Below the pieces are notes generated by a model that was given only the letters and a program-made list of their open reading frames with translations, was not told the origin of the DNA and did no database searches. A stretch of DNA of 64,000 nt, taken from the NCBI RefSeq assembly GCF_001904725.1, contig NZ_MRCE01000012.1:62001-126000 (forward strand), written 5' to 3'. Both the position numbers and the translations under genes were made by a program. Numbering within the stretch: position 1 is the stretch's first letter; every line of letters begins with the position of its first letter. The DNA comes from Phormidium ambiguum IAM M-71 (GTDB lineage: Bacteria > Cyanobacteriota > Cyanobacteriia > Cyanobacteriales > Aerosakkonemataceae). Positions 53,001 through 64,000 of the stretch are shown piece by piece.

Positions 53001-53732
53001 TTATTTCTCATGATTGCTAACCAAACAATTCTTAGAACGAAATGTTCGATCGATCAGAGTAGTCCAAGCAACATTAAGTTCAGTATCTTGAGGATTAGTT
53101 TGGCGCAGTTGATTTAGCTCAGTGAAAGTGTCGTACCAGAGACGCTTTTTTATTAAAATTTGTAGGCGTTCTCGTGAAGTTGCTTGTTTTAACTGACTCT
53201 CAATTTCGGGAGCTAATGCAATTCTTTCTATTTTTCCACTGGTATACATTTCATGATTGATTCCACCATAAGATAAAATCCATTTATATTTCTGACCAAT
53301 TACCAAAGGGGGTGCTGTTTGGGGGAGACGAAAATCTATAATTCTTGCGGTTTGATTTAGCTCAAAAGTGGTTTGATAAACTATATTGTTTTGTTCGTTT
53401 TGTAATTCTAAATGTACTGATTTGGGCAAGGAAGGTTGACTTTTTAGATAAAACCAAAGAGTTGGATGTTCCGCAGCCGTAAGTCCGTATTGATGAGCAG
53501 GAACGATCGCCAAAAAATCACAAGATCCCCTACTACCTGCGTCTGCGGTATCTCCAGGTTTGCCTCTTGATGGTGGCTCATATTCCAGTAGTTCTATGAT
53601 TTCTGTTAATAAATTCCGGCTTCTAGAAAGTTGCGGATTTACTACATCTGCTAACCCAGATTGACTCATGGTTAAAGCCAAGACAAAATTAATGATAATC
53701 TGCCCCAGCAGAATTTTGTTTTTGCTTACCAT
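53001..53732 (-). CDS. DUF928-family exported protein
   Basis: The 243-residue protein has a signal peptide (about 1-28). It matches DUF928: RGKPGDTADAGSRGSC then FYLKSQPSLPKSVHLELQNE and YKWILSYGG. A C-terminal domain is helical. It follows the CHASE2 gene by 2 bp and is the last gene of the operon. Family function unknown; it often co-occurs with CHASE2 and CHAT proteins in cyanobacteria. Confidence 0.88.
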   Translation of the reverse strand: MVSKNKILLGQIIINFVLALTMSQSGLADVVNPQLSRSRNLLTEIIELLEYEPPSRGKPGDTADAGSRGSCDFLAIVPAHQYGLTAAEHPTLWFYLKSQPSLPKSVHLELQNEQNNIVYQTTFELNQTARIIDFRLPQTAPPLVIGQKYKWILSYGGINHEMYTSGKIERIALAPEIESQLKQATSRERLQILIKKRLWYDTFTELNQLRQTNPQDTELNVAWTTLIDRTFRSKNCLVSNHEK

Positions 53733-53734
53733 AC

Positions 53735-56047
53735 CTATACCTCTTTGCGATCGCTAAATCGTTTTTGGAAAGCTATACAACTATTTACACTCCCGACAGT
53801 TATTAGTAATGCTAAAACAGATGGCACTAGGGGAACCCATCCTCCTTGAATCAACAGAATCAAGCAAACACCATATAAAACTACAACAGTAATGCCAGTC
53901 GCCAACATCACAGCAGATTTCCTTTGTAGTCGCCAAACAATTAATCCACCAATTATCGACCAACTGTAAATCCAAAATCCTTCTTGCCAGCGATTCCCAA
54001 CCCATAATAAAGGTCGATTTTCTAAAACAGCACTAATAATTTGACTTACCATTTGTGCTTGAACTAAAACACCTGGCATTTTTTGATAAGGCAACTGACT
54101 GGCGCTGTAAGGTGTTAAAAAATCATCGCCAGAAATCGGGGCGCTCACTCCAATAATAATAATTTTATCTTTGATTAAATTGGGATTAATTTGCTCGGTT
54201 AAAACATCTGTAATTCTGACTCGTTCGGCTACATTTTTGCGGTAATTAAGCAAAATTTGAAAACCGCGAACATCAACTTGTTGATAAGCGCCTAGTTTTG
54301 GTTCTAAAGGTGCAAAAATAGCACGTCCTAATTGCATTCGATCGTTAGATAAGTTTTGCGGTTTAATCCCCTCTGTTGCTAGGTAATGAAATGCTAATCT
54401 AATGCTCAATGAGTAGTTAGTATGACAAGGATCGTTTTGCAGGGGTTGCATAAAAATTAAGTGGCGACGCAAAATACTATCAGGGTCTACCACAACGTTG
54501 CTAAATCCCAAACGCTTTGGCGAATATTTAGGAGGTGGTTTAATTCCCGGTTTGTTAGGATTGGCGTTATCCTTGGCGCTGCACAAAGCAATGAGACGGC
54601 TATTTTGTTGTAATTGATGACTAAAGGCAGCATAACCTGGTTCGATCGCGCGATTACGAAAAATATCTAAACCAATAGTTCGCGGTTGATGTCGATTTAA
54701 TTTCTCTATTACTTGAGCCAGAATAGCATCTGGTAAAGGAAACCCATAATTATTAATATCCATTTCGGTGGCTTCCACAACTAATAATCGCGGATCTTGT
54801 TTTTCATCAGGACGTAAGCGCATTAACTGATCGAAAACTTGCAATTCCCAAATTTGAAAAAAACCGAGCGATCGCATTCCTATAATTAATAAAGTTACCC
54901 CTAAACTTACCAATAAAGGAGGCAAAAAGTTGCTGGATAGTTGTTCGTTACCCCGCAATTTCTGCCAAGTTGGTGGTGTATTAGCCGGATTTTGACAAAT
55001 AATTGGCAACCAAGTTGCACAGGGATATTCATTTTCTAAATGTTGCAGTTTTTCTCGCGCCTCTCGCACTGCTAAATAAAAAGATTCGCCTCCAGCAAAA
55101 CTATCTAAAAAATGTTTCAAAAATTCCTGTGCAATGCGATCGGATATAGGTTCTCGCATCACCACAATTTGCGGAATATTCAAATCTGCTAAATAACTTG
55201 CTAATCCTAACCCATCACAAGAATTAAAAATTGCTAACTGTAAACCCCTTTGAATAGCTTTTTTCAGGGCATTTTTTAACTGACAAATTGTGATTTTTTC
55301 ACTTTGATTGATATAAAGAACGCCTGTTTCTCCCTCGGTTTGGCTGTGCCCAGCAAAAAACAAAATATCCCAACCTTGTTTATCCCAAAGTTGTTCATCT
55401 AATTCTTGACGTTGGGGTTCTTCGAGAAAAACTAATTCTGCACCCGGTAAATTAGACAGTAATTTGCGATCGTCTTTGATATTAATCCCGCTACTATTAC
55501 CCAAAATTGCTAAGATTCGCACTTTACCAAGGTGAGTTTGAGAGCTAATTTTCCCCGGTTGAAATTCCCGGTTACTTAACCCAATTTCTGCTTTTGGGTA
55601 ATCATCAAAAAAATCCCACAAATGCCAAGGAATTCGTCGCAATTTAATATTGTTTGTTTCAATAATAAACTGAATTTCATCAAATGAATTAAGTTCTCGA
55701 CGTAATTGTCGATCGATGCGACGAAATTCTTCAGAATTCAACCATTTATTGATTTTAATTTGTAACTGCTGACATAGATCGCTAAATTCTACCGTAGAAA
55801 CTTGGACTGTTTCTTCTGGAATAATTTCTATTCTTAATGGCTGACCAAGACGTTGAGCTAGCGATTGATAAAGTAATTGCCAACGAGTATAAATTTGTTC
55901 AATTTCTAGTGCAGGTGGTAAACTGCCCAAAAATTTCATTCCACTAGCGTCGCCCTTTTGGGACAGGATCGCAGTCACCAGAGGAAAACCACTGTAAAAA
56001 TCTCCCTGTCCCAAACTTAAGACGACTAATTTACTCATTTTTTCCAC
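53735..56047 (-). CDS. CHAT-CHASE2 membrane sensor protein
   Basis: The 770-residue protein has an N-terminal CHAT domain (about 150-355) with His in LFFAGHSQTE and Cys in IFNSCDGLG. A membrane helix (about 372-392) leads to a CHASE2 sensor domain outside the membrane (about 400-660: VEATEMDINNYGFPLPDAI, RTIGLDIFRN, IIGVSAPISGDDF), and three helices follow at the C-terminus (about 680-760). Both caspase-like residues are kept. CHASE2 is a ligand-sensing domain, so cleavage or binding by CHAT may be signal controlled. It lies 7 bp after DUF1822. Confidence 0.9.
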   Translation of the reverse strand: MEKMSKLVVLSLGQGDFYSGFPLVTAILSQKGDASGMKFLGSLPPALEIEQIYTRWQLLYQSLAQRLGQPLRIEIIPEETVQVSTVEFSDLCQQLQIKINKWLNSEEFRRIDRQLRRELNSFDEIQFIIETNNIKLRRIPWHLWDFFDDYPKAEIGLSNREFQPGKISSQTHLGKVRILAILGNSSGINIKDDRKLLSNLPGAELVFLEEPQRQELDEQLWDKQGWDILFFAGHSQTEGETGVLYINQSEKITICQLKNALKKAIQRGLQLAIFNSCDGLGLASYLADLNIPQIVVMREPISDRIAQEFLKHFLDSFAGGESFYLAVREAREKLQHLENEYPCATWLPIICQNPANTPPTWQKLRGNEQLSSNFLPPLLVSLGVTLLIIGMRSLGFFQIWELQVFDQLMRLRPDEKQDPRLLVVEATEMDINNYGFPLPDAILAQVIEKLNRHQPRTIGLDIFRNRAIEPGYAAFSHQLQQNSRLIALCSAKDNANPNKPGIKPPPKYSPKRLGFSNVVVDPDSILRRHLIFMQPLQNDPCHTNYSLSIRLAFHYLATEGIKPQNLSNDRMQLGRAIFAPLEPKLGAYQQVDVRGFQILLNYRKNVAERVRITDVLTEQINPNLIKDKIIIIGVSAPISGDDFLTPYSASQLPYQKMPGVLVQAQMVSQIISAVLENRPLLWVGNRWQEGFWIYSWSIIGGLIVWRLQRKSAVMLATGITVVVLYGVCLILLIQGGWVPLVPSVLALLITVGSVNSCIAFQKRFSDRKEV

Positions 56048-56054
56048 CTAATTT

Positions 56055-57029
56055 CTAGATAATAAAATCCTCTTTTAATGTAAAAGTTTCTAAAGAAATT
56101 TGAATACCAAATTGTTCGCCAACACTACCTATAAAGTGTGGTAATTGAATGAAATTATCGAAACTACGAGAAGGAATTTCCTGTATAATTTCGCCAGTTT
56201 CATCTAATAATATTAGTTTGAGATTAGCTGGGAGATAGGTTTCTCCTGATCCAGGATGAAGTTGGACGCGGATTTTTACTCTTTCATCGGTTTCTGGCGA
56301 AATAGCAACTAGTAAAGCTACGCATTGATGACCAAGTTGCACTCCTAGATCGATCAGTTTAGCACCCTTGATAGTTGTTTTTTCGCTCGGCTGTTTTCGC
56401 CAACCAAACTCTAAAGAATTACCTGATTCTAAGTTTAAAAGTGTTTCGACAGATTGCCAACCAGCGACAAAAGTATTTTGCAACCATTGGCTCAATTGAA
56501 TTTGGGATTTGGGATTTGGGATTTGGGATTGGGAAACTGTGAGGTACTCCAAGTAGACGAGTAAATCATCTAGAGTTTGTAGCTGACTAATTGGTAGATT
56601 TCCTGTTGTTACTGTTTTAGCAAATCCTAAAAGTGTGGCTTGTCGATCGCCATCGTCGATCGCTACTACAACCACACCAATTCTGTCCTCTGGAACCTCT
56701 GGTGGCAAGTAATATGTTAATTTTTGTAAGTCGTCAACTTTGACAGGACGACATTCCAATTTTCCTAATCCAGTTAATGTCAAATCAGCTACATCAGCGT
56801 AAAGGCGAATGGCAGAGTTCCAACTGTCGCTATCTTTTAGATCGACAGAAATATCCATCATCTGCATATAATCATTTACTGCGCCGATAGCCAAAGTATT
56901 AAGATAAACTTGTGTTTGTTTTTCGGGAGTTAGTTGTTGATTGGCAAATTGCTGTGCTATCTGCATTGATGCAGTAGTAATGGGCAGTGGAATAGCGTTT
57001 TCTAAGATATGTTTGATACTAGGAATCAT
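56055..57029 (-). CDS. DUF1822-family protein
   Basis: The 324-residue cytoplasmic protein has TM-free sequence and the DUF1822 pattern: AVNDYMQMMDISVDL with WNSAIRLYADVADLTLTGLG, then a C-terminal domain with GHQCVALLVAISPETDERV. Its middle contains SQIPNPKSQIQ, encoded by a heptanucleotide repeat. The gene begins 16 bp after the sigma-like gene. Function unknown; in cyanobacteria it recurs next to a sigma-like gene and CHASE2. Confidence 0.86.
   Translation of the reverse strand: MIPSIKHILENAIPLPITTASMQIAQQFANQQLTPEKQTQVYLNTLAIGAVNDYMQMMDISVDLKDSDSWNSAIRLYADVADLTLTGLGKLECRPVKVDDLQKLTYYLPPEVPEDRIGVVVVAIDDGDRQATLLGFAKTVTTGNLPISQLQTLDDLLVYLEYLTVSQSQIPNPKSQIQLSQWLQNTFVAGWQSVETLLNLESGNSLEFGWRKQPSEKTTIKGAKLIDLGVQLGHQCVALLVAISPETDERVKIRVQLHPGSGETYLPANLKLILLDETGEIIQEIPSRSFDNFIQLPHFIGSVGEQFGIQISLETFTLKEDFII
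56501..56534. repeat. In-frame heptanucleotide tandem repeat
   Basis: About five copies of TTTGGGA on the plus strand (coding: TCCCAAA) within the DUF1822 gene. Seven-base units change frame each copy and return every 21 bp. Confidence 0.9.
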
Positions 57030-57045
57030 GGCGAATTACAGACCT

Positions 57046-57768
57046 CTATTCTAGATATCCCTGATTTTGAGCAAATTTTCGCAGACGTGGCAAACATTCG
57101 CGCTTGTAAAAATTCGCTGCGGTTGACAGTGGTACACCAAATTCTTGCGCGATCGCTTTCCAAGGCGTTTCGGGAGGAAGGCGGCGCAAAATTAACACCT
57201 GGCAAGTTAAATGAGGATATCCTTTAGCGTGAATTTTTGTTAATTCTCCATCTGGATCGGCATTCACCCATTTATAAGTTTCTTCCAAAATCAGCGGCAC
57301 ATCGGGAGATGCGGGAAGATTGTCGATCGGATCGAGATTATTTTCAGCTTGTAGTGAAGAACTAAAAACAATTCTCTCTTGTTCTTCCTGTTGATTTTGT
57401 CGGTAATCTTGCAGTCGCCATTTCAAATAATTATCCAGCCAAGTAATCACGCTACCTTGAGCAGGATTATACTGCTCCAGATTGCGACAGAAATAAAGCC
57501 AAGTTTGTTGCAGCGCATCATTATAATAAGGTGTATTTTCTCGCCAAAGTTTCCCGGAATTTGTCACTATTTGGACAATTTGGTTAATTTTTCGCCGTCG
57601 CTGCCAACTTTTAGGGGGGTAAGAACAAGCTTCCGCGATTAGCTGTTGCAAGTGTTGATGCAAATTATGAGCATGACGATCAGACACTAACTTGCACCTC
57701 AAAGAATATTCTTTGACGCATTTGGGAAATTCCTTTTCCTGAATTGAACTCCTATCTTTTAAATTCAT
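57046..57768 (-). CDS. Sigma-70-like factor heading the CHASE2 operon
   Basis: The 240-residue protein has a sigma-like region 2 (DALQQTWLYFCRNLEQYNPAQGSVITWLDNYLKWRLQDYR) and a region 4-like helix-turn-helix (PPETPWKAIAQEFGVPLSTAANFYKRECLPRLRKF). The start is placed at the ATG at 57768; the longer frame uses a TTG at 57870 and begins in a 73-bp repeat. It leads a four-gene operon (16, 7 and 2 bp gaps) with DUF1822, CHAT-CHASE2 and DUF928. It is probably a dedicated ECF-like factor of a surface regulon. Confidence 0.8.
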   Translation of the reverse strand: MNLKDRSSIQEKEFPKCVKEYSLRCKLVSDRHAHNLHQHLQQLIAEACSYPPKSWQRRRKINQIVQIVTNSGKLWRENTPYYNDALQQTWLYFCRNLEQYNPAQGSVITWLDNYLKWRLQDYRQNQQEEQERIVFSSSLQAENNLDPIDNLPASPDVPLILEETYKWVNADPDGELTKIHAKGYPHLTCQVLILRRLPPETPWKAIAQEFGVPLSTAANFYKRECLPRLRKFAQNQGYLE

Positions 57769-57869
57769 GACTGAATATGGGCTTACCGGATGAGTAGTTA
57801 TCGGAGTCTGGCTGAAAATTTTCGCGGTAAGTGAATGAGTTTTTGGTTTTGCGATCGCGCTTTTGTGCA

Positions 57870-57942
57870 AACTTTTGTAACTATTTCCATCCCATGCGAA
57901 AAAGTTGAATTTTGCTAGATATCTGAACTAGAAGCGATCGCG
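57870..57942 (+). promoter_or_regulatory. 73-bp shared upstream element, copy 1
   Basis: Aligns without gaps with 58278-58350 and 59223-59295. It contains GCGAAAAAGTTGAATTTT and ends in HIP1. Candidate promoter: TTGAAT (positions 36-41 of the element), 17 nt, then CTAGAA (59-64). It lies 82 bp before the small membrane gene and beside the sigma gene start. Confidence 0.6.
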
Positions 57943-58023
57943 CATTGGGGAGCTTACCGCGTTCCTCCCTAATGAATGCGATCGCGTTTTATAGAGATTA
58001 ACTTATTTTTGGTTAACAGAACA

Positions 58024-58236
58024 ATGTACCAAAATCAAACCGATCGAGATCAATATTCGACAATAGATTTGGAAGGTGTCCACCTAACCGTAGATAAAGC
58101 AGTTAATCGACCAATAAAAAACTATTTTTTGATCCTGATTTATTTCAAACAGCTTTGTTACAGCATTTTATTTTTGCTGCTCTTGTTTTTCATAGTTATA
58201 CCGTTATTTTGGCTGACCCTTCTTGCTGACGAATAA
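58024..58236 (+). CDS. Small membrane protein
   Basis: The ATG at 58024 gives 70 residues; an earlier in-frame start at 57976 adds 16. It has an acidic cytosolic head, then a long hydrophobic segment IYFKQLCYSILFLLLLFFIVIPLFWLTLLA, long enough for one or two helices. No family recognised. The 73-bp shared element lies just upstream and links it to the two PEP-CTERM genes. Confidence 0.5.
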   Translation: MYQNQTDRDQYSTIDLEGVHLTVDKAVNRPIKNYFLILIYFKQLCYSILFLLLLFFIVIPLFWLTLLADE

Positions 58237-58277
58237 AAGCGATCGGATATCGGTAGCGCGATCGCATCTCTACTACG

Positions 58278-58350
58278 AACATTTGTAAAAATTTCAAGGT
58301 AGTGCGAAAAATTTAGATTTTAGCAGATATCTCAATTAGATGCGATCGCT
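58278..58350 (+). promoter_or_regulatory. 73-bp shared upstream element, copy 2
   Basis: Ungapped relative of the copies at 57870 and 59223. The -10-like hexamer TTAGAT falls at element positions 59-64; the -35-like hexamer is TTAGAT too. It lies 115 bp before the lectin-like gene. Confidence 0.6.
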
Positions 58351-58464
58351 CTAATAGGTAGGCAACCTTAATACCTTCCAAATTAAAACTTGTAGCGTTT
58401 TATCCACTTAGAGTATCTTTGCAAACTCTAAAGGTTCTTCTCAAACATTAAAAGGAGGATTTGC

Positions 58465-59190
58465 GTGTCTCATACACAAACATCTCTGAAATGTAAACAA
58501 TCACGAAAAGCCCATCTTCCCAAAAAGCTATCAATTATTCTGTTTGGCACGGCATCCATAATTGTAGGAATGGCAGAAGCAGCAGAAGCATCTGTTTTGT
58601 TTAACCCAACAACAGGACACTACTATGAGTTTGTGCCTGGTCGGTTTACCTGGGACGAAGCAAAAACAGCTGCGGAAGCAAGGGTTTTTAATAACCTCCA
58701 AGGTTATTTGACGACTATTACTTCTCAAGCAGAAATGGACTTTATTGTTTCAAACTTAATGTTACCTAGTTTTCCCAACCCGCCCAATCCTCCGGGAGCC
58801 TGGACTAATTTTGATATTTGGGGGTGGATTGGTGCTAGCGATGCAGAACAGGAAGGTACTTGGAAATGGGTAACAGGGCCAGAAGCAGGAACAGTATTTT
58901 GGTCAGAAGGAGCGCCAGTTGATGGTGCATACTCAAACTGGAGTCTTGGCGAACCTAACAATTTGGGGCCTGAAAATTATGCTCACATAGACTACAGACC
59001 GATTCCTGGTACTTGGAATGACTGGTTCAGTTTTGGACGACAAGGTTATTACGTCGAGTACGGTAATCCAGGTCAACCTGAATCAGTCCCAGAACCTACT
59101 TCGATATTAGGTTTGTTGGCTTTTGGTGCTTTTGGTGTAGGTTCGCTGTTAAAACGCAAACCGCAAGGACTGGGTAGCAATTTCAAGTAA
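58465..59190 (+). CDS. C-type-lectin-fold PEP-CTERM protein
   Basis: The 241-residue protein starts at GTG with AAAGGAGG 7-8 nt upstream. A signal peptide (about 20-42) is followed by a C-type-lectin-like domain (about 45-205): HYYEFVPGRFTWDEAKTAAE, GWIGASDAEQEGTWKWVTGPE, WSLGEPNNLGPENYAHI and WNDWF. The C-terminus is a PEP-CTERM sorting tail: VPEPTSILGLLAFGAFG then KRK. It is expected to be processed by exosortase and attached or secreted. EPN is the calcium/sugar motif of mannose-type lectins. Confidence 0.92.
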   Translation: MSHTQTSLKCKQSRKAHLPKKLSIILFGTASIIVGMAEAAEASVLFNPTTGHYYEFVPGRFTWDEAKTAAEARVFNNLQGYLTTITSQAEMDFIVSNLMLPSFPNPPNPPGAWTNFDIWGWIGASDAEQEGTWKWVTGPEAGTVFWSEGAPVDGAYSNWSLGEPNNLGPENYAHIDYRPIPGTWNDWFSFGRQGYYVEYGNPGQPESVPEPTSILGLLAFGAFGVGSLLKRKPQGLGSNFK

Positions 59191-59222
59191 TTTTTTTTAA
59201 AGCGCGATCGCATTCCCATCCC

Positions 59223-59295
59223 AACTTTTACTACCATCTTTAACCGCCGCGAAAAAGTTGAATTTTTACAGATAAATCAATTAGATGCGATCGCT
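59223..59295 (+). promoter_or_regulatory. 73-bp shared upstream element, copy 3
   Basis: Third ungapped copy, 54 bp before the second PEP-CTERM gene. TTGAAT and TTAGAT are 17 nt apart, and HIP1 follows immediately. Confidence 0.6.
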
Positions 59296-59349
59296 TTTTA
59301 TCCAGCTTGCAGTTTCTATCAATCCTTAAAACTCTTGGGAGGATTTATC

Positions 59350-60102
59350 ATGTCTTACTGCCAAAAATCTAGAATAATGTTGACAACAGCTGTCGTTCTT
59401 GGTTTCGCTGCTAGTCCCAGCCTAGCTGCTACCTTTGATGCTGCGGCTGATTTTTCTATTAACAATAATCCTAATAGTGTTTGGCAATACGGTTGGTCAT
59501 CAACGCTGGGATCGGCCCTCAACCTACTTAGCAATACCAAAAGCGACTGCGGTGGTCAAATCGATGTATGGTTTAGACCTAATTCTGCTTTTGGTGCACC
59601 TATTATTGCAAATAACAAAACTGGAAATACGATACAATGTGGCACTGGAAAATTTGCGCCTGGTGAATTACTTTTGCATCCCGGTGCTTCAAATGAATAT
59701 AGTGTGGTTCGTTGGGTAGCTCCTGAAGCAGGAAACTATTCAATTGCCACGAAATTTGCAGGAGCAGATTTTGTTGGGCCAACAACAACAGATGTTCATG
59801 TTCTTTATAATGGTGTCTCTCTTTTCAACGACTTGGTTAACGGTTTTGGCGATCCTAGTGCCAAGCTATGGGCGACAACCTTATCAGTTGCAGCTGGTGA
59901 CATAATTGATTTCGCTGTTGGCTTTGGTAGCGGAGGTTTTTGGTACGACACTACAAGTCTTGATGTCACAATCTCCAGTACAACGTCTCCTAAAAGTGTT
60001 CCTGAATCTACTTCTACATTGGGTTTATTGGCATTAAGTATCTTTGGTGCAAGTTCATTGTTGAAACGCAAACAGCAAGAATCTAGTAGCGGTTTCAAGT
60101 AA
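59350..60102 (+). CDS. PEP-CTERM protein with a PES variant motif
   Basis: The start ATG 59350 has GGGAGG (59337-59342) 7 nt upstream; the frame from 59335 is not needed. The 250-residue protein has a signal peptide (about 8-27), a beta-rich central domain (CGGQIDVWFRP, GNYSIATKFAGADF, VHVLYNGVSLF) and a tail VPESTSTLGLLALSIFG then KRK. The tail has Ser where Pro is normal in PEP-CTERM. It was probably duplicated in arrangement with the upstream lectin-like gene but the domains differ. Confidence 0.88.
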   Translation: MSYCQKSRIMLTTAVVLGFAASPSLAATFDAAADFSINNNPNSVWQYGWSSTLGSALNLLSNTKSDCGGQIDVWFRPNSAFGAPIIANNKTGNTIQCGTGKFAPGELLLHPGASNEYSVVRWVAPEAGNYSIATKFAGADFVGPTTTDVHVLYNGVSLFNDLVNGFGDPSAKLWATTLSVAAGDIIDFAVGFGSGGFWYDTTSLDVTISSTTSPKSVPESTSTLGLLALSIFGASSLLKRKQQESSSGFK

Positions 60103-60229
60103 TTTTAAAAGTGCGTTGGCGCAACCTTTCGTAGGCGATCGTACATCTAAAAATACCCATAATTTGCGATCGCCTCTCCCTTTAAATTTCAACAAAAATT
60201 TACTAACACTATTCAACAGGGGATAAATT

Positions 60230-61257: not shown

Positions 61258-64000
61258 ATGTCAAAGTCACTTTTCTTTGGCTCAACTTTAGCTTGTTTGG
61301 CAGTAATAGGTGCGATCGAAAATTTCGGAATTAACCATCCTAGTGCTTCAGCACAACCTATTATTCCCGCAACAGACGGAACTAATACTCAAGTTATCCC
61401 AAATGGTAATCAATTTAACATCCAGGGAGGACAATCCTCCCAAGATGGCAAAAATTTATTTCATAGTTTTCAAAGATTCGGCTTATCGCAAAATCAAATA
61501 GCTAATTTTTTAGCTAATCCCAACATCCGCAACATAATCGGGCGAATCAATGGTGGTGAAGCTTCTTTAATTAACGGATTAATTCAAGTAATGGGGGGAA
61601 AATCTAATTTATATTTGATGAACCCAGCCGGGATTATTTTTGGTTCTAATGCTCAATTAAATGTACCGGGCGCTTTCACTGCTACCACTGCTACAGGGAT
61701 TGGCTTTGGTAATAATAATTGGTTCAACGCAATTGGTAATAATAATTGGTCAGCTTTAGTTGGTACGCCAAATGAATTTAGATTTGATTCTCTCAATCCC
61801 GGAAGTATTGTTAATTTTGGTAATTTAACTGTAGGAACAGGAGAAAGTTTAACTTTAATCGGTGGTAATGTGATTAATCTTGGCACTTTGGAAGCACCAG
61901 GAGGCAGAATTACTGTTGCCGCAGTTCCGGGTAAAAATTTGGTTCGCATTTCCCAAGAAGGACGTTTATTAAGTGTTGAATTACCATTAATCCCAGAGGG
62001 AGAAATTCAATCAGGAATCACAGCTTTGTCATTACCTCAATTACTTACAGGCAATAATATTGGCAATGCTAATGTTGTTTCAGTGAACGAAAAAGGACAA
62101 GTAATTTTGACAGGTTCTGGCATTACCCTACCAGATGCAGCAGGAACTACTATTATCTCAGGTAATGTTTCTAGTCGCAGTCAGCAGTCAGTTGGCGGAG
62201 AAATTAATGTTTTAGGTTCGCGCATTGCTTTACTCAATGCAAATATCGATGCTTCTGGTGTAAACGGTGGCGGCAATATTTTGATTGGGGGAAATCGTTC
62301 TGGACTCGGCCCTTTGCCCAATGCACAATATACTTTTATTAGTCCTGATTCTGTTGTTTCTGCGGATGCTTTGCAAATAGGCAATGGCGGTAAAATTATT
62401 GTCTTTGCAGAAGATACAACGCAAGTTTACGGTAATTTGACGGCGCGGGGTGGGTTGCTGGGAGGAAATGGCGGATTTATCGAGACAAGTGGTTTGCGAT
62501 CGCTTACAATCACCACAACCCCCAATGTCGGCGCAACAGCAGGTTTAGGCGGCGAATGGTTAATTGACCCTTACAATATCACCATTGTTGCCGGAAATGG
62601 TAACACCAACATTAAGGACAAATCGCCCTTTGAATCATCTGGTGATAATGCACAATTAGGTATTGATTTAATTACCGCAGCACTAAGTTCTGGCGATGTA
62701 ACTATCTCCACAAGTGCTAGTGATACACAAGTTGGTGGTACGCAAGCTGGAGATATTAACTTCTTTACACCGTTAACATTTAATTTAACAACTGAAAGAA
62801 CCCTGACACTGGATGCACATAACAGTATTTCCATTTTCCAACCAATTCAGGGAACAGCAGGTAGCGCCCCTTTGAACCTTGTTTTTAACGCCAATAAGGG
62901 GAATTTAACAGGAGATACAGGCAGAGTTGGTATTTTTAATTCAATTAATACTTTGGGCGGTAATCTTACAATCAATGGTAGTGGAATTTTATTGGAAAAC
63001 AAACCATCTTTAAATTTAGGTGGTGGCGATCTTAATTTAACAGCTGTAGGATCTAGTTCAACTTCAGCCCCCATTCTTCATATTAAAACTGGTACTGAGA
63101 TTGATACAGGTGGAGGAAGCATTACTATTACCAGTAAAGTTACCTCTGGCAATGCTATGGCAATCTCAATTGATAAAACTAATTTAATTGTTAAAGGTAA
63201 TGGAAATATTACAATTAATGGAAATAGTGAAAAAAGTCCTGGCGTTTTTATCACAGGAAATCAACTTACTGTTGAGAATGGAACTATTGAAATTAATGGT
63301 AGTGGTAGACCTGATGGACAGGGTATTTTACTCAATGGTGCTACTAAATTAACTGCAACAGGTAATGGAAAAATTAACCTTAACGTTGGTGAAGGTCGGG
63401 GTCGTTTAACGATCGGTGATTTTAGCGAATTAAAAGCTAATGAAGGTGAAATCAATCTTACAGGTAGCGGTGGCATTTTCCTTAATAATAACAGTAGTAT
63501 TCAATCTAATACTGGTACTATAACCCTAAAAAATTCCGATATTATTTATATTAATACTGGCAGCAATATTCAATCTCTAAATGGTCAGATTAATCTGATT
63601 AGCGATAGCGACTTTTTTCTTACTGATGGTAGTATTCAGTCAGGAAATGCTCAAATTAATTTGAGTAGCAAGGGTTTCATTTTTTTCGATAATAGCAATT
63701 TCCAATCTACTAGCGGTGGAATAACACTTACCAGTAATGATTTTGTGCTACTCAATAATGGTAGTAGTCTTAAATCTACTACAGGTGCTATTAGTGTTAC
63801 AGGTAATAATGGTGTTGTAGTCAATTCTAACAGCAGTATTGAATCTAATGATGGTAATATAACACTTGTTGGTCTTTTTAATGGCATTTATATCTATGAC
63901 AACAGCAGCCTGCAATCTACCAACAGTGATATTAATTTAACTGGCATTGAAGTAGAATTTAGTAACAGTAATCTTAATCCCATTCCTGGTAGTGGAAATC
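61258..64000 (+). CDS. Filamentous-hemagglutinin-like two-partner-secretion exoprotein (3' end outside window)
   Basis: The frame is open from ATG 61258 to the window end (914 codons plus one base). A signal peptide covers about residues 1-32 (SKSLFFGSTLACLAVIGAI, cleavage near ASAQ). The TPS domain follows (about 35-170): NLFHSFQRFGLSQNQIANFL, INGGEASLINGLIQ and LYLMNPAGIIFGSNAQL, the sites used by the FhaC-type transporter. Then comes a beta-helix region, and from about residue 740 on there are tandem units of about 23 residues with a shared core like SSIQSNTGTITL. The strand-opposed frames across it are shadows. No C-terminal module is visible. Confidence 0.93.
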   Translation, partial: MSKSLFFGSTLACLAVIGAIENFGINHPSASAQPIIPATDGTNTQVIPNGNQFNIQGGQSSQDGKNLFHSFQRFGLSQNQIANFLANPNIRNIIGRINGGEASLINGLIQVMGGKSNLYLMNPAGIIFGSNAQLNVPGAFTATTATGIGFGNNNWFNAIGNNNWSALVGTPNEFRFDSLNPGSIVNFGNLTVGTGESLTLIGGNVINLGTLEAPGGRITVAAVPGKNLVRISQEGRLLSVELPLIPEGEIQSGITALSLPQLLTGNNIGNANVVSVNEKGQVILTGSGITLPDAAGTTIISGNVSSRSQQSVGGEINVLGSRIALLNANIDASGVNGGGNILIGGNRSGLGPLPNAQYTFISPDSVVSADALQIGNGGKIIVFAEDTTQVYGNLTARGGLLGGNGGFIETSGLRSLTITTTPNVGATAGLGGEWLIDPYNITIVAGNGNTNIKDKSPFESSGDNAQLGIDLITAALSSGDVTISTSASDTQVGGTQAGDINFFTPLTFNLTTERTLTLDAHNSISIFQPIQGTAGSAPLNLVFNANKGNLTGDTGRVGIFNSINTLGGNLTINGSGILLENKPSLNLGGGDLNLTAVGSSSTSAPILHIKTGTEIDTGGGSITITSKVTSGNAMAISIDKTNLIVKGNGNITINGNSEKSPGVFITGNQLTVENGTIEINGSGRPDGQGILLNGATKLTATGNGKINLNVGEGRGRLTIGDFSELKANEGEINLTGSGGIFLNNNSSIQSNTGTITLKNSDIIYINTGSNIQSLNGQINLISDSDFFLTDGSIQSGNAQINLSSKGFIFFDNSNFQSTSGGITLTSNDFVLLNNGSSLKSTTGAISVTGNNGVVVNSNSSIESNDGNITLVGLFNGIYIYDNSSLQSTNSDINLTGIEVEFSNSNLNPIPGSGN

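Follow-up and report, generated by a model that had tools for sequence, protein, structure and literature searches.

The three 73-bp elements found 5' of surface-protein genes in Phormidium ambiguum IAM M-71 are, as judged from sequence comparison, very probably promoters recognized by the adjacent ECF-like sigma factor. The window analysed here is the whole stretch of 64,000 nucleotides that contains them. In these predicted promoters, GCGAAAA would act as the -35 box and GATA(A/T)C (GATAAA in copy 3) as the -10 box, while a conserved TAGA, about ten nucleotides after GATA, is the likely transcription start. The sequence of the elements, their distribution, their co-occurrence with particular sigma lineages, their orientation and their position were observed directly. 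The shared promoter of a regulon put forward in the initial annotation is well supported by three observations: the co-occurrence with sigma lineages, the presence of the same boxes before the sigma gene, and the orientation of all 40 sites examined in detail. The features of the locus are collected in Table 1.

Table 1. Predicted genes, element copies and box pairs around the sigma gene (positions in the window).
Feature	Position	Strand	Remarks
DUF928 protein gene	53001..53732	-	
CHAT (caspase-like) + CHASE2 membrane protein gene	53735..56047	-	PF12770 E 3.1e-13; CHASE2 E 6.6e-67
DUF1822 protein gene	56055..57029	-	PF08852 E 2.9e-75; adjoins the sigma gene
ECF-like sigma factor gene	57046..57768	-	240 aa from the ATG at 57768
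Fifth match to the boxes	57054..57082	-	Within the end of the sigma coding sequence and 24 nt ahead of the DUF1822 start; ambiguous
Predicted promoter core of the sigma gene itself	57797..57825	-	GCGAAAA/GATAAC, 17 nt between CGAAA and GATA, without block A
Element copy 1	57870..57942	+	Block A and GCGAAAAA/GATATC, core 57896-57923; precedes the small membrane ORF and points away from the sigma gene
Small membrane protein ORF	57976..58236	+	Presumed target of copy 1; translation may actually begin at the internal ATG at 58024
Element copy 2	58278..58350	+	Core 58304-58331; 5' of the C-type-lectin PEP-CTERM gene
PEP-CTERM protein with C-type-lectin-like domain	58465..59190	+	Presumed target of copy 2
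Element copy 3	59223..59295	+	GCGAAAAA at 59249, then GATAAA; 5' of the second PEP-CTERM gene
PEP-CTERM protein	59350..60102	+	Presumed target of copy 3; TIGR02595 18.1 bits (cut-off 16)

The three copies do align without gaps, as had been described, with 46 of 73 columns invariant and GCGAAAAA present in each of them; block A is weak in copy 3. The repeat family can be extended to 91 nt, two copies being 65% and 70% identical to copy 1. The positions given initially, upstream of a small membrane ORF and both PEP-CTERM genes and beside a sigma-like gene, were confirmed. A 40-nt core, allowing up to three mismatches, matches three times in the window and not once in any of 100 shuffles. The genome scan proposed in the initial annotation returned the same three matches in the entire 7.4-Mb genome, in a single cluster of 1.5 kb. 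A full-element model gives the three copies 74-76 bits, against 18 for the runner-up, and neither the core pattern nor the model found further copies in the genome outside the cluster.

Aligned copies of the window's family show three conserved blocks, namely block A (AACTTTTGTAAC), GCGAAAA and AGATA. The conserved boxes are GCGAAAA and GATA, with 16 nt between CGAAA and GATA in the copies, and conservation spans about 65 nt of the element. Transcription from the sites, direct recognition by the sigma, the role of block A and the start site are inferred. The initial annotation had instead taken a TTGAAT/TTAGAT pair, spaced by 17 nt, as the promoter boxes. This pair is exact in copy 3 only; copy 1 has TTGAAT/CTAGAA and copy 2 TTAGAT/TTAGAT. 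As boxes, the pair is not supported: TTGAAT is not conserved in relatives and is missing from two of the three copies in Microseira (G002), which carry an 8-bp deletion in the spacer, and TTAGAT is variable and lies approximately at the expected transcription start. The terminal HIP1 is indeed found in all three copies (GCGATCGC, one base before the end), but it is no part of the shared element, because 17 Nostoc-type targets carry GGCAAAA or similar in its place.

The distance from the first base of TTTTGTAA in block A to GCG is exactly 23 nt in 21 of 25 aligned target sites and 22 or 24 nt in two; TTTTGTAA was not found in the remaining two, including copy 3. Five of the 13 copies of the window's family (G007d, G002a, G002b, G008b and G004), those with deletions, shifts or cut ends, were left out of this alignment. 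Block A was not seen in the sigma genes' own promoters. Its presence on target promoters only would fit an activator site or an UP element, and it is probably one of the two.

The same two boxes, separated by 17 nt, precede the sigma gene itself. This arrangement also stands before many sigma orthologues, among them the sigma genes of Nostoc relatives (e.g., GCGAAAAACTTGAACTTGAGTTTGATAAC) and sigma relatives in Microcoleus and others. With these boxes before its own gene, the sigma factor should activate its own expression. This core and the fifth match had both been missed in the initial annotation. The fifth match is ambiguous, since it lies inside the coding end of the sigma gene and conserved codons account for part of it. 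Some Nostoc-type relatives have a match further downstream in the same gap between sigma and DUF1822, so an internal promoter may have shifted. Of the five places in the organism's own genome that fit the short pattern GCGAAAAN{15,18}GATAWC, four fall in a 1.3-kb stretch around the sigma gene, whereas a reversed control fits nowhere; copy 3, with its GATAAA, is not one of the five. For genome-wide use the short pattern alone proved too weak and was abandoned, as its matches were no more numerous than those of the control in 24 of 36 genomes.

The window was also scanned on both strands, over all 64 kb, with a matrix trained on 25 sites from outside the window's family, its spacer penalties being set by hand when the 16-nt spacing of the window was already known. 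The five best matches were, in order, the sigma gene's own site, copy 3, copy 1, copy 2 and the DUF1822 site. The best score was 22.9, for the sigma gene's own site, and in 40 random sequences of the same composition the best score averaged 17.1 with a maximum of 23.7. This maximum exceeds 22.9, and therefore no single match is beyond chance; only their clustering is.

The sigma protein is called ECF-like and not a member of a filed family, because its match to the Pfam model Sigma70_r2 (16.0 bits, E 0.011) remains under the cut-off of 24. Nine of 30 members match that model at E 1 or better, and NCBIfam sigma models likewise stay under their cut-offs. A profile search of the PDB gave SigK at E 0.0018. 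In the structure model (mean pLDDT 75.6, pTM 0.44), residues 38-132 resemble region 2 of sigma-E (4lup; Z 8.6, rmsd 2.1, 86 aligned residues) and residues 159-240 region 4 of SigR (5fgm; Z 6.9, rmsd 2.3, 65 aligned residues), Z values near 9 not being decisive for helical folds, among which they can arise. The first 26 rows of a Foldseek search with the model are all, by title, sigma-factor or transcription-complex entries (best E 0.022). The predicted fold thus agrees, with due caution, with a two-domain ECF arrangement in which regions 2 and 4 are joined by a short linker.

The sigma gene is followed on the same strand by genes for a DUF1822 protein, a CHAT-CHASE2 membrane protein and a DUF928 protein. 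An alignment of ten CHAT-CHASE2 sequences, including that of the window, shows a conserved N-terminus and invariant H230 and C273 in all ten (numbering of the aligned translation). We take these two residues to be the catalytic His-Cys pair. No anti-sigma family was found among the Pfam matches of the eight locus proteins scanned, and PADLOC gave no match for four proteins of the window.

The presence of the boxes before the sigma gene follows the relatedness of the sigma proteins. In a comparison of the best 80 of 216 sigma loci, CGAAA-N16/17-GAT(A/G)A, a pattern that was fixed only after many of these sequences had been seen, precedes the sigma gene in 18 of the 22 loci whose sigma has at least 55% identity. 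The count falls to two of eight loci at 52-54%, none of 29 at 50-51% and two of 21 below. Among the 628 other ORFs of the same loci, six are preceded by the pattern, and five of these look target-like. On a sigma tree of 81 rows, the motif is found in 21 of 26 rows on one side versus one of 55 on the other (Fisher 1e-13), a split that is itself weakly supported (74/89). The tree was made without one interrupted gene (L121), and rows containing an internal stop were represented only by the part that follows the last one. Two of the five motif-negative rows on the first side (L114 and L126) are one base short of the stricter CGAAA-N16/17-GATAA, and a third (L118) is two short.

The two nearest relatives of the window's sigma in this tree, from Argonema (L102) and from genome G004, have no recognizable own promoter at the expected place, even when two substitutions are allowed; G004 had been set to 'none' by hand on the tree, which was later confirmed. 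Both keep target elements, although no own promoter could be recognized upstream of their sigma genes (Argonema, L102, 4017; G004, L057, 6374). Autoregulation is therefore not kept throughout, and the boxes before the sigma genes are best read as a predicted autoregulatory loop in most lineages.

A helix of region 4 differs between these lineages. It reads NFYKREC in 19 of 20 close-lineage loci (the remaining one was not read) and ANFY in three of five loci of an intermediate lineage (two not read), which keeps the motif in four of its five loci. In the other lineage, it reads SSFYQRQC in 32 of the 33 loci shown, out of 55. A different upstream motif, GTAAT..AATACT, is found in 21 of these 55 loci versus none of the 25 loci of the motif-bearing lineages; examples stand upstream of the sigma genes of L166, L171, L176 and L181. 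It is perhaps the cognate promoter of the other-lineage sigma.

The element, too, follows certain sigma lineages across genera. With the full-element model, five of 60 genomes have matches above 34 bits, all of them in the window's family; the next best match is at 23.7 bits, and matches below 24 bits were treated as chance, a few of them being inspected. The five genomes (G000, G002, G004, G007 and G008) contain 13 copies above 34 bits. Within the family, the element exceeds this score in five of five genomes with a close sigma versus none of five without (Fisher 0.008); a family genome without such an element, G006, has a sigma at 55% identity that is apparently outside the close lineage. 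In G002, G004, G007 and G008, one copy adjoins the sigma gene and points away from it. A second element model was applied to 388 genomes of the class. As the organism's own genome is the only member of the window's family in this set, just two weak further matches (26 bits) were obtained: one in a genome with a close sigma apparently on the same contig (G010:C10), the other before a long repeat-protein ORF (G379).

Some of the related loci are disturbed. In Microseira, the sigma gene itself appears interrupted, lying in two frames with one stop (L055 1626-2490), and only the first part of the sigma gene, followed by a masked stretch, is present in G008 (L056 6134-6475). Argonema antarcticum has a small membrane gene and a 135-aa gene that are nearly identical on two contigs (L053 and L054), each with element copies. 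One copy in this organism breaks off after 56 positions, next to a TPR-CHAT-like gene in inverted orientation, which suggests a rearrangement.

A third model, R3, was built from 15 target promoters of eight of the 19 genomes with a motif-lineage sigma (15 with a close and four with an intermediate sigma). At E 1e-3, it matches 18 of these 19 genomes versus four of 20 genomes with only other lineages (Fisher 2e-6), and at E 1e-6 12 of 19 versus three of 20 (Fisher 0.003). When the eight training genomes are set aside, the matches remain at 10 of 11 versus four of 20 (one-sided p 2e-4). Up to 17 matches are found per genome, and the one motif-lineage genome without any R3 match at E 1e-3 is G429. 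In the window, R3 recovers two of the three copies at E 1e-3 or better (5e-6 and 2e-5). Among the four genomes matched without a motif-lineage sigma (G457, G458, G459 and G462), the best match has an E of 1.1e-9. In G458 and G462, the element-like sites are followed by small genes, 107 and 109 aa long, that closely resemble each other.

These data also bear on a second reading, in which the elements would be promoters of a housekeeping or other sigma factor, and GCGAAAA and block A activator or repressor sites inherited with the cluster. The roughly 65 conserved nucleotides are more than a bare bipartite promoter needs, and the TTGAAT-N17-TTAGAT of copy 3 is a loose match to a sigma-70-type promoter. 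Such a reading would also accommodate the four genomes that keep an element-like site without a motif-lineage sigma, and the nearest relatives that keep target elements without the sigma gene's own promoter. However, where that own promoter is kept, it has both boxes at 17 nt without block A, the motif varies together with the sigma lineage and its region-4 helix, and a sigma factor would require just such a pair of boxes, 16-17 nt apart. Dependence on another sigma is thus considered improbable, and recognition by the adjacent ECF-like sigma is retained as the preferred reading.

The position of the elements relative to genes is uniform. Among 83 listed R3 matches, the 40 with retrieved flanks were examined, nine of which had also trained R3 and several of which are near-copies of each other; three lie in genomes without a motif-lineage sigma. 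Rather than being scattered at random or placed downstream of genes, the pattern that the initial annotation had named as counter-evidence, the sites have their next gene, as called within this analysis, on the same strand in 40 of 40 cases, five of these genes being ORFs of 67-84 aa and doubtful standing. The distance to the next gene is 16-612 nt, with a median of 181, and 39 of the 40 sites lie outside other ORFs.

This regularity is opposed to a dispersed or mobile repeat inserted near these genes, the alternative that had been left standing initially. As those of a repeat might, the copies of a single genome resemble each other over 73-91 nt, and the Argonema segment is duplicated with its copies on two contigs. 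But the flanks in relatives are unalike whereas boxes and spacing are kept, and the same-strand genes lie at promoter distance. A repeat is very unlikely, because no copies were found in the 7.4-Mb genome outside the 1.5 kb of the cluster.

A riboswitch, an attenuator or another leader RNA element would likewise be expected upstream of start codons. There is room for a leader, and in Nostoc-type targets the conservation continues about ten nucleotides beyond the inferred start. However, an Rfam search of 57000-60200 gave nothing up to E 1, shuffled sequences fold as well as the three copies do (z 0.0, 0.74 and 0.02), and the majority of the conserved columns are located 5' of the inferred start. 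Such an element is very unlikely next to a promoter of the ECF-like sigma.

The output of this predicted regulon would consist largely of exported or surface proteins: PEP-CTERM proteins in the window, and RTX, TPS-hemagglutinin and lectin-like proteins in relatives. In the window, Pfam gave no match for the second PEP-CTERM protein, the target of copy 3; a small ORF similar to that behind copy 1 is found among element copies in Argonema. From the relatives, 27 target proteins were scanned with Pfam. RTX calcium-binding proteins account for six of these, including one that also has a VWA domain. A TPS secretion domain is present in four, a ricin-type lectin in one and a laminin-G domain in another, and a further protein is PEP-CTERM-like, scoring just below the cut-off. 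Nine have no family above its cut-off, and the remaining five comprise a helix-turn-helix protein, a DUF4870 protein, a HEAT-repeat protein, a TPR-CHAT protein and a response regulator that contains an AraC domain. The RTX, TPS, lectin-like and PEP-CTERM proteins, 13 of the 27 and 13 of the 18 with a recognized family, are of exported or surface type as far as their families indicate. The window also holds the start of a large exported repeat protein, TPS-hemagglutinin-like by eye (61258-63999, plus strand), which runs off the window and begins downstream of a sugar transferase gene. None of the 14 best matrix matches precedes it.

The arrangement resembles autoregulated ECF regulons of the E. 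coli sigma-E type, in which the sigma factor also has a two-domain fold and its own promoter and its targets share boxes 16-17 nt apart. The usual ECF promoter boxes are of the AAC and CGT type. In contrast, the boxes here are GCGAAAA and GATAAC, and the neighbours are CHAT-CHASE2 and DUF1822 genes.

The neighbourhood as such has already been published. Neighbourhoods of an EACC2-caspase, an ECF sigma and DUF1822, with the same genes as here (CHAT with CHASE2, ECF-like sigma, DUF1822), have been described and a link from caspase to sigma proposed (Kaur et al. 2021, PMC8195603). In the passages concerned, the sigma is proposed to control many genes, with neither a promoter nor targets being named; both are predicted here. 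No promoter or targets of this sigma were found in the open-licence PMC papers to which the search extended, subscription papers lying outside it. ECF54 sigma genes likewise occur near genes for CHAT proteins, and control by proteolysis has been proposed for them (PMC8999054).

Among cyanobacterial alternative sigma factors, SigJ of Nostoc punctiforme also has a conserved promoter motif, the J-Box, described as an extended -10 (aAtacT with three upstream Gs) with a weak -35 (PMC6495340). The consensus of the 17 targets here, GCGAAAA and GATAaC, is unlike it when compared by eye; this consensus lacks the extended -10, and the element was rejected as a J-Box promoter. According to the results cited from PMC12188702, five PEP-CTERM genes depend on SigJ and yet have no J-Box, which leaves room for a second regulator. 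The ECF-like SigG, SigH and SigI have, like the present protein and those of a 2024 sigma classification (PMC11119718), regions 2 and 4 only. Promoter recognition by these three is called unclear in a 2009 review (PMC2758279), and DUF1822 is absent from the main text of the 2024 classification.

A further parallel is found in type III-E CRISPR systems, where, in the account given in PMC10028731, the RNA-guided Csx29 protease cleaves Csx30, an inhibitor of CASP-sigma. There, too, a CHAT protease gene and an ECF sigma share one locus that contains matching promoters, but the sensor part here is CHASE2. As a guess, DUF1822 might be the sigma inhibitor. A relay can be sketched tentatively, in which an outside signal received by CHASE2 would cause the caspase-like CHAT domain to cleave or displace the DUF1822 anti-sigma, and the freed sigma would switch on its own gene together with adhesins and surface proteins; we regard it as possible rather than likely.

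If true, this relay would be a membrane-sensing counterpart of the Csx29-Csx30-CASP-sigma system and would lead to a remodelled cell surface, and the sigma paralogues would have diverged in region 4 along with their promoters, giving several insulated relays per cell. The region-4 helix and the upstream motif, which change together between the sigma lineages, also offer a natural case of promoter-specificity switching. Bacterial caspase-like proteins have been proposed, in the passages cited above, to act on genes via a coupled ECF sigma (PMC8195603), and the predicted promoter, the likely autoregulatory loop and the list of targets make this proposal testable.
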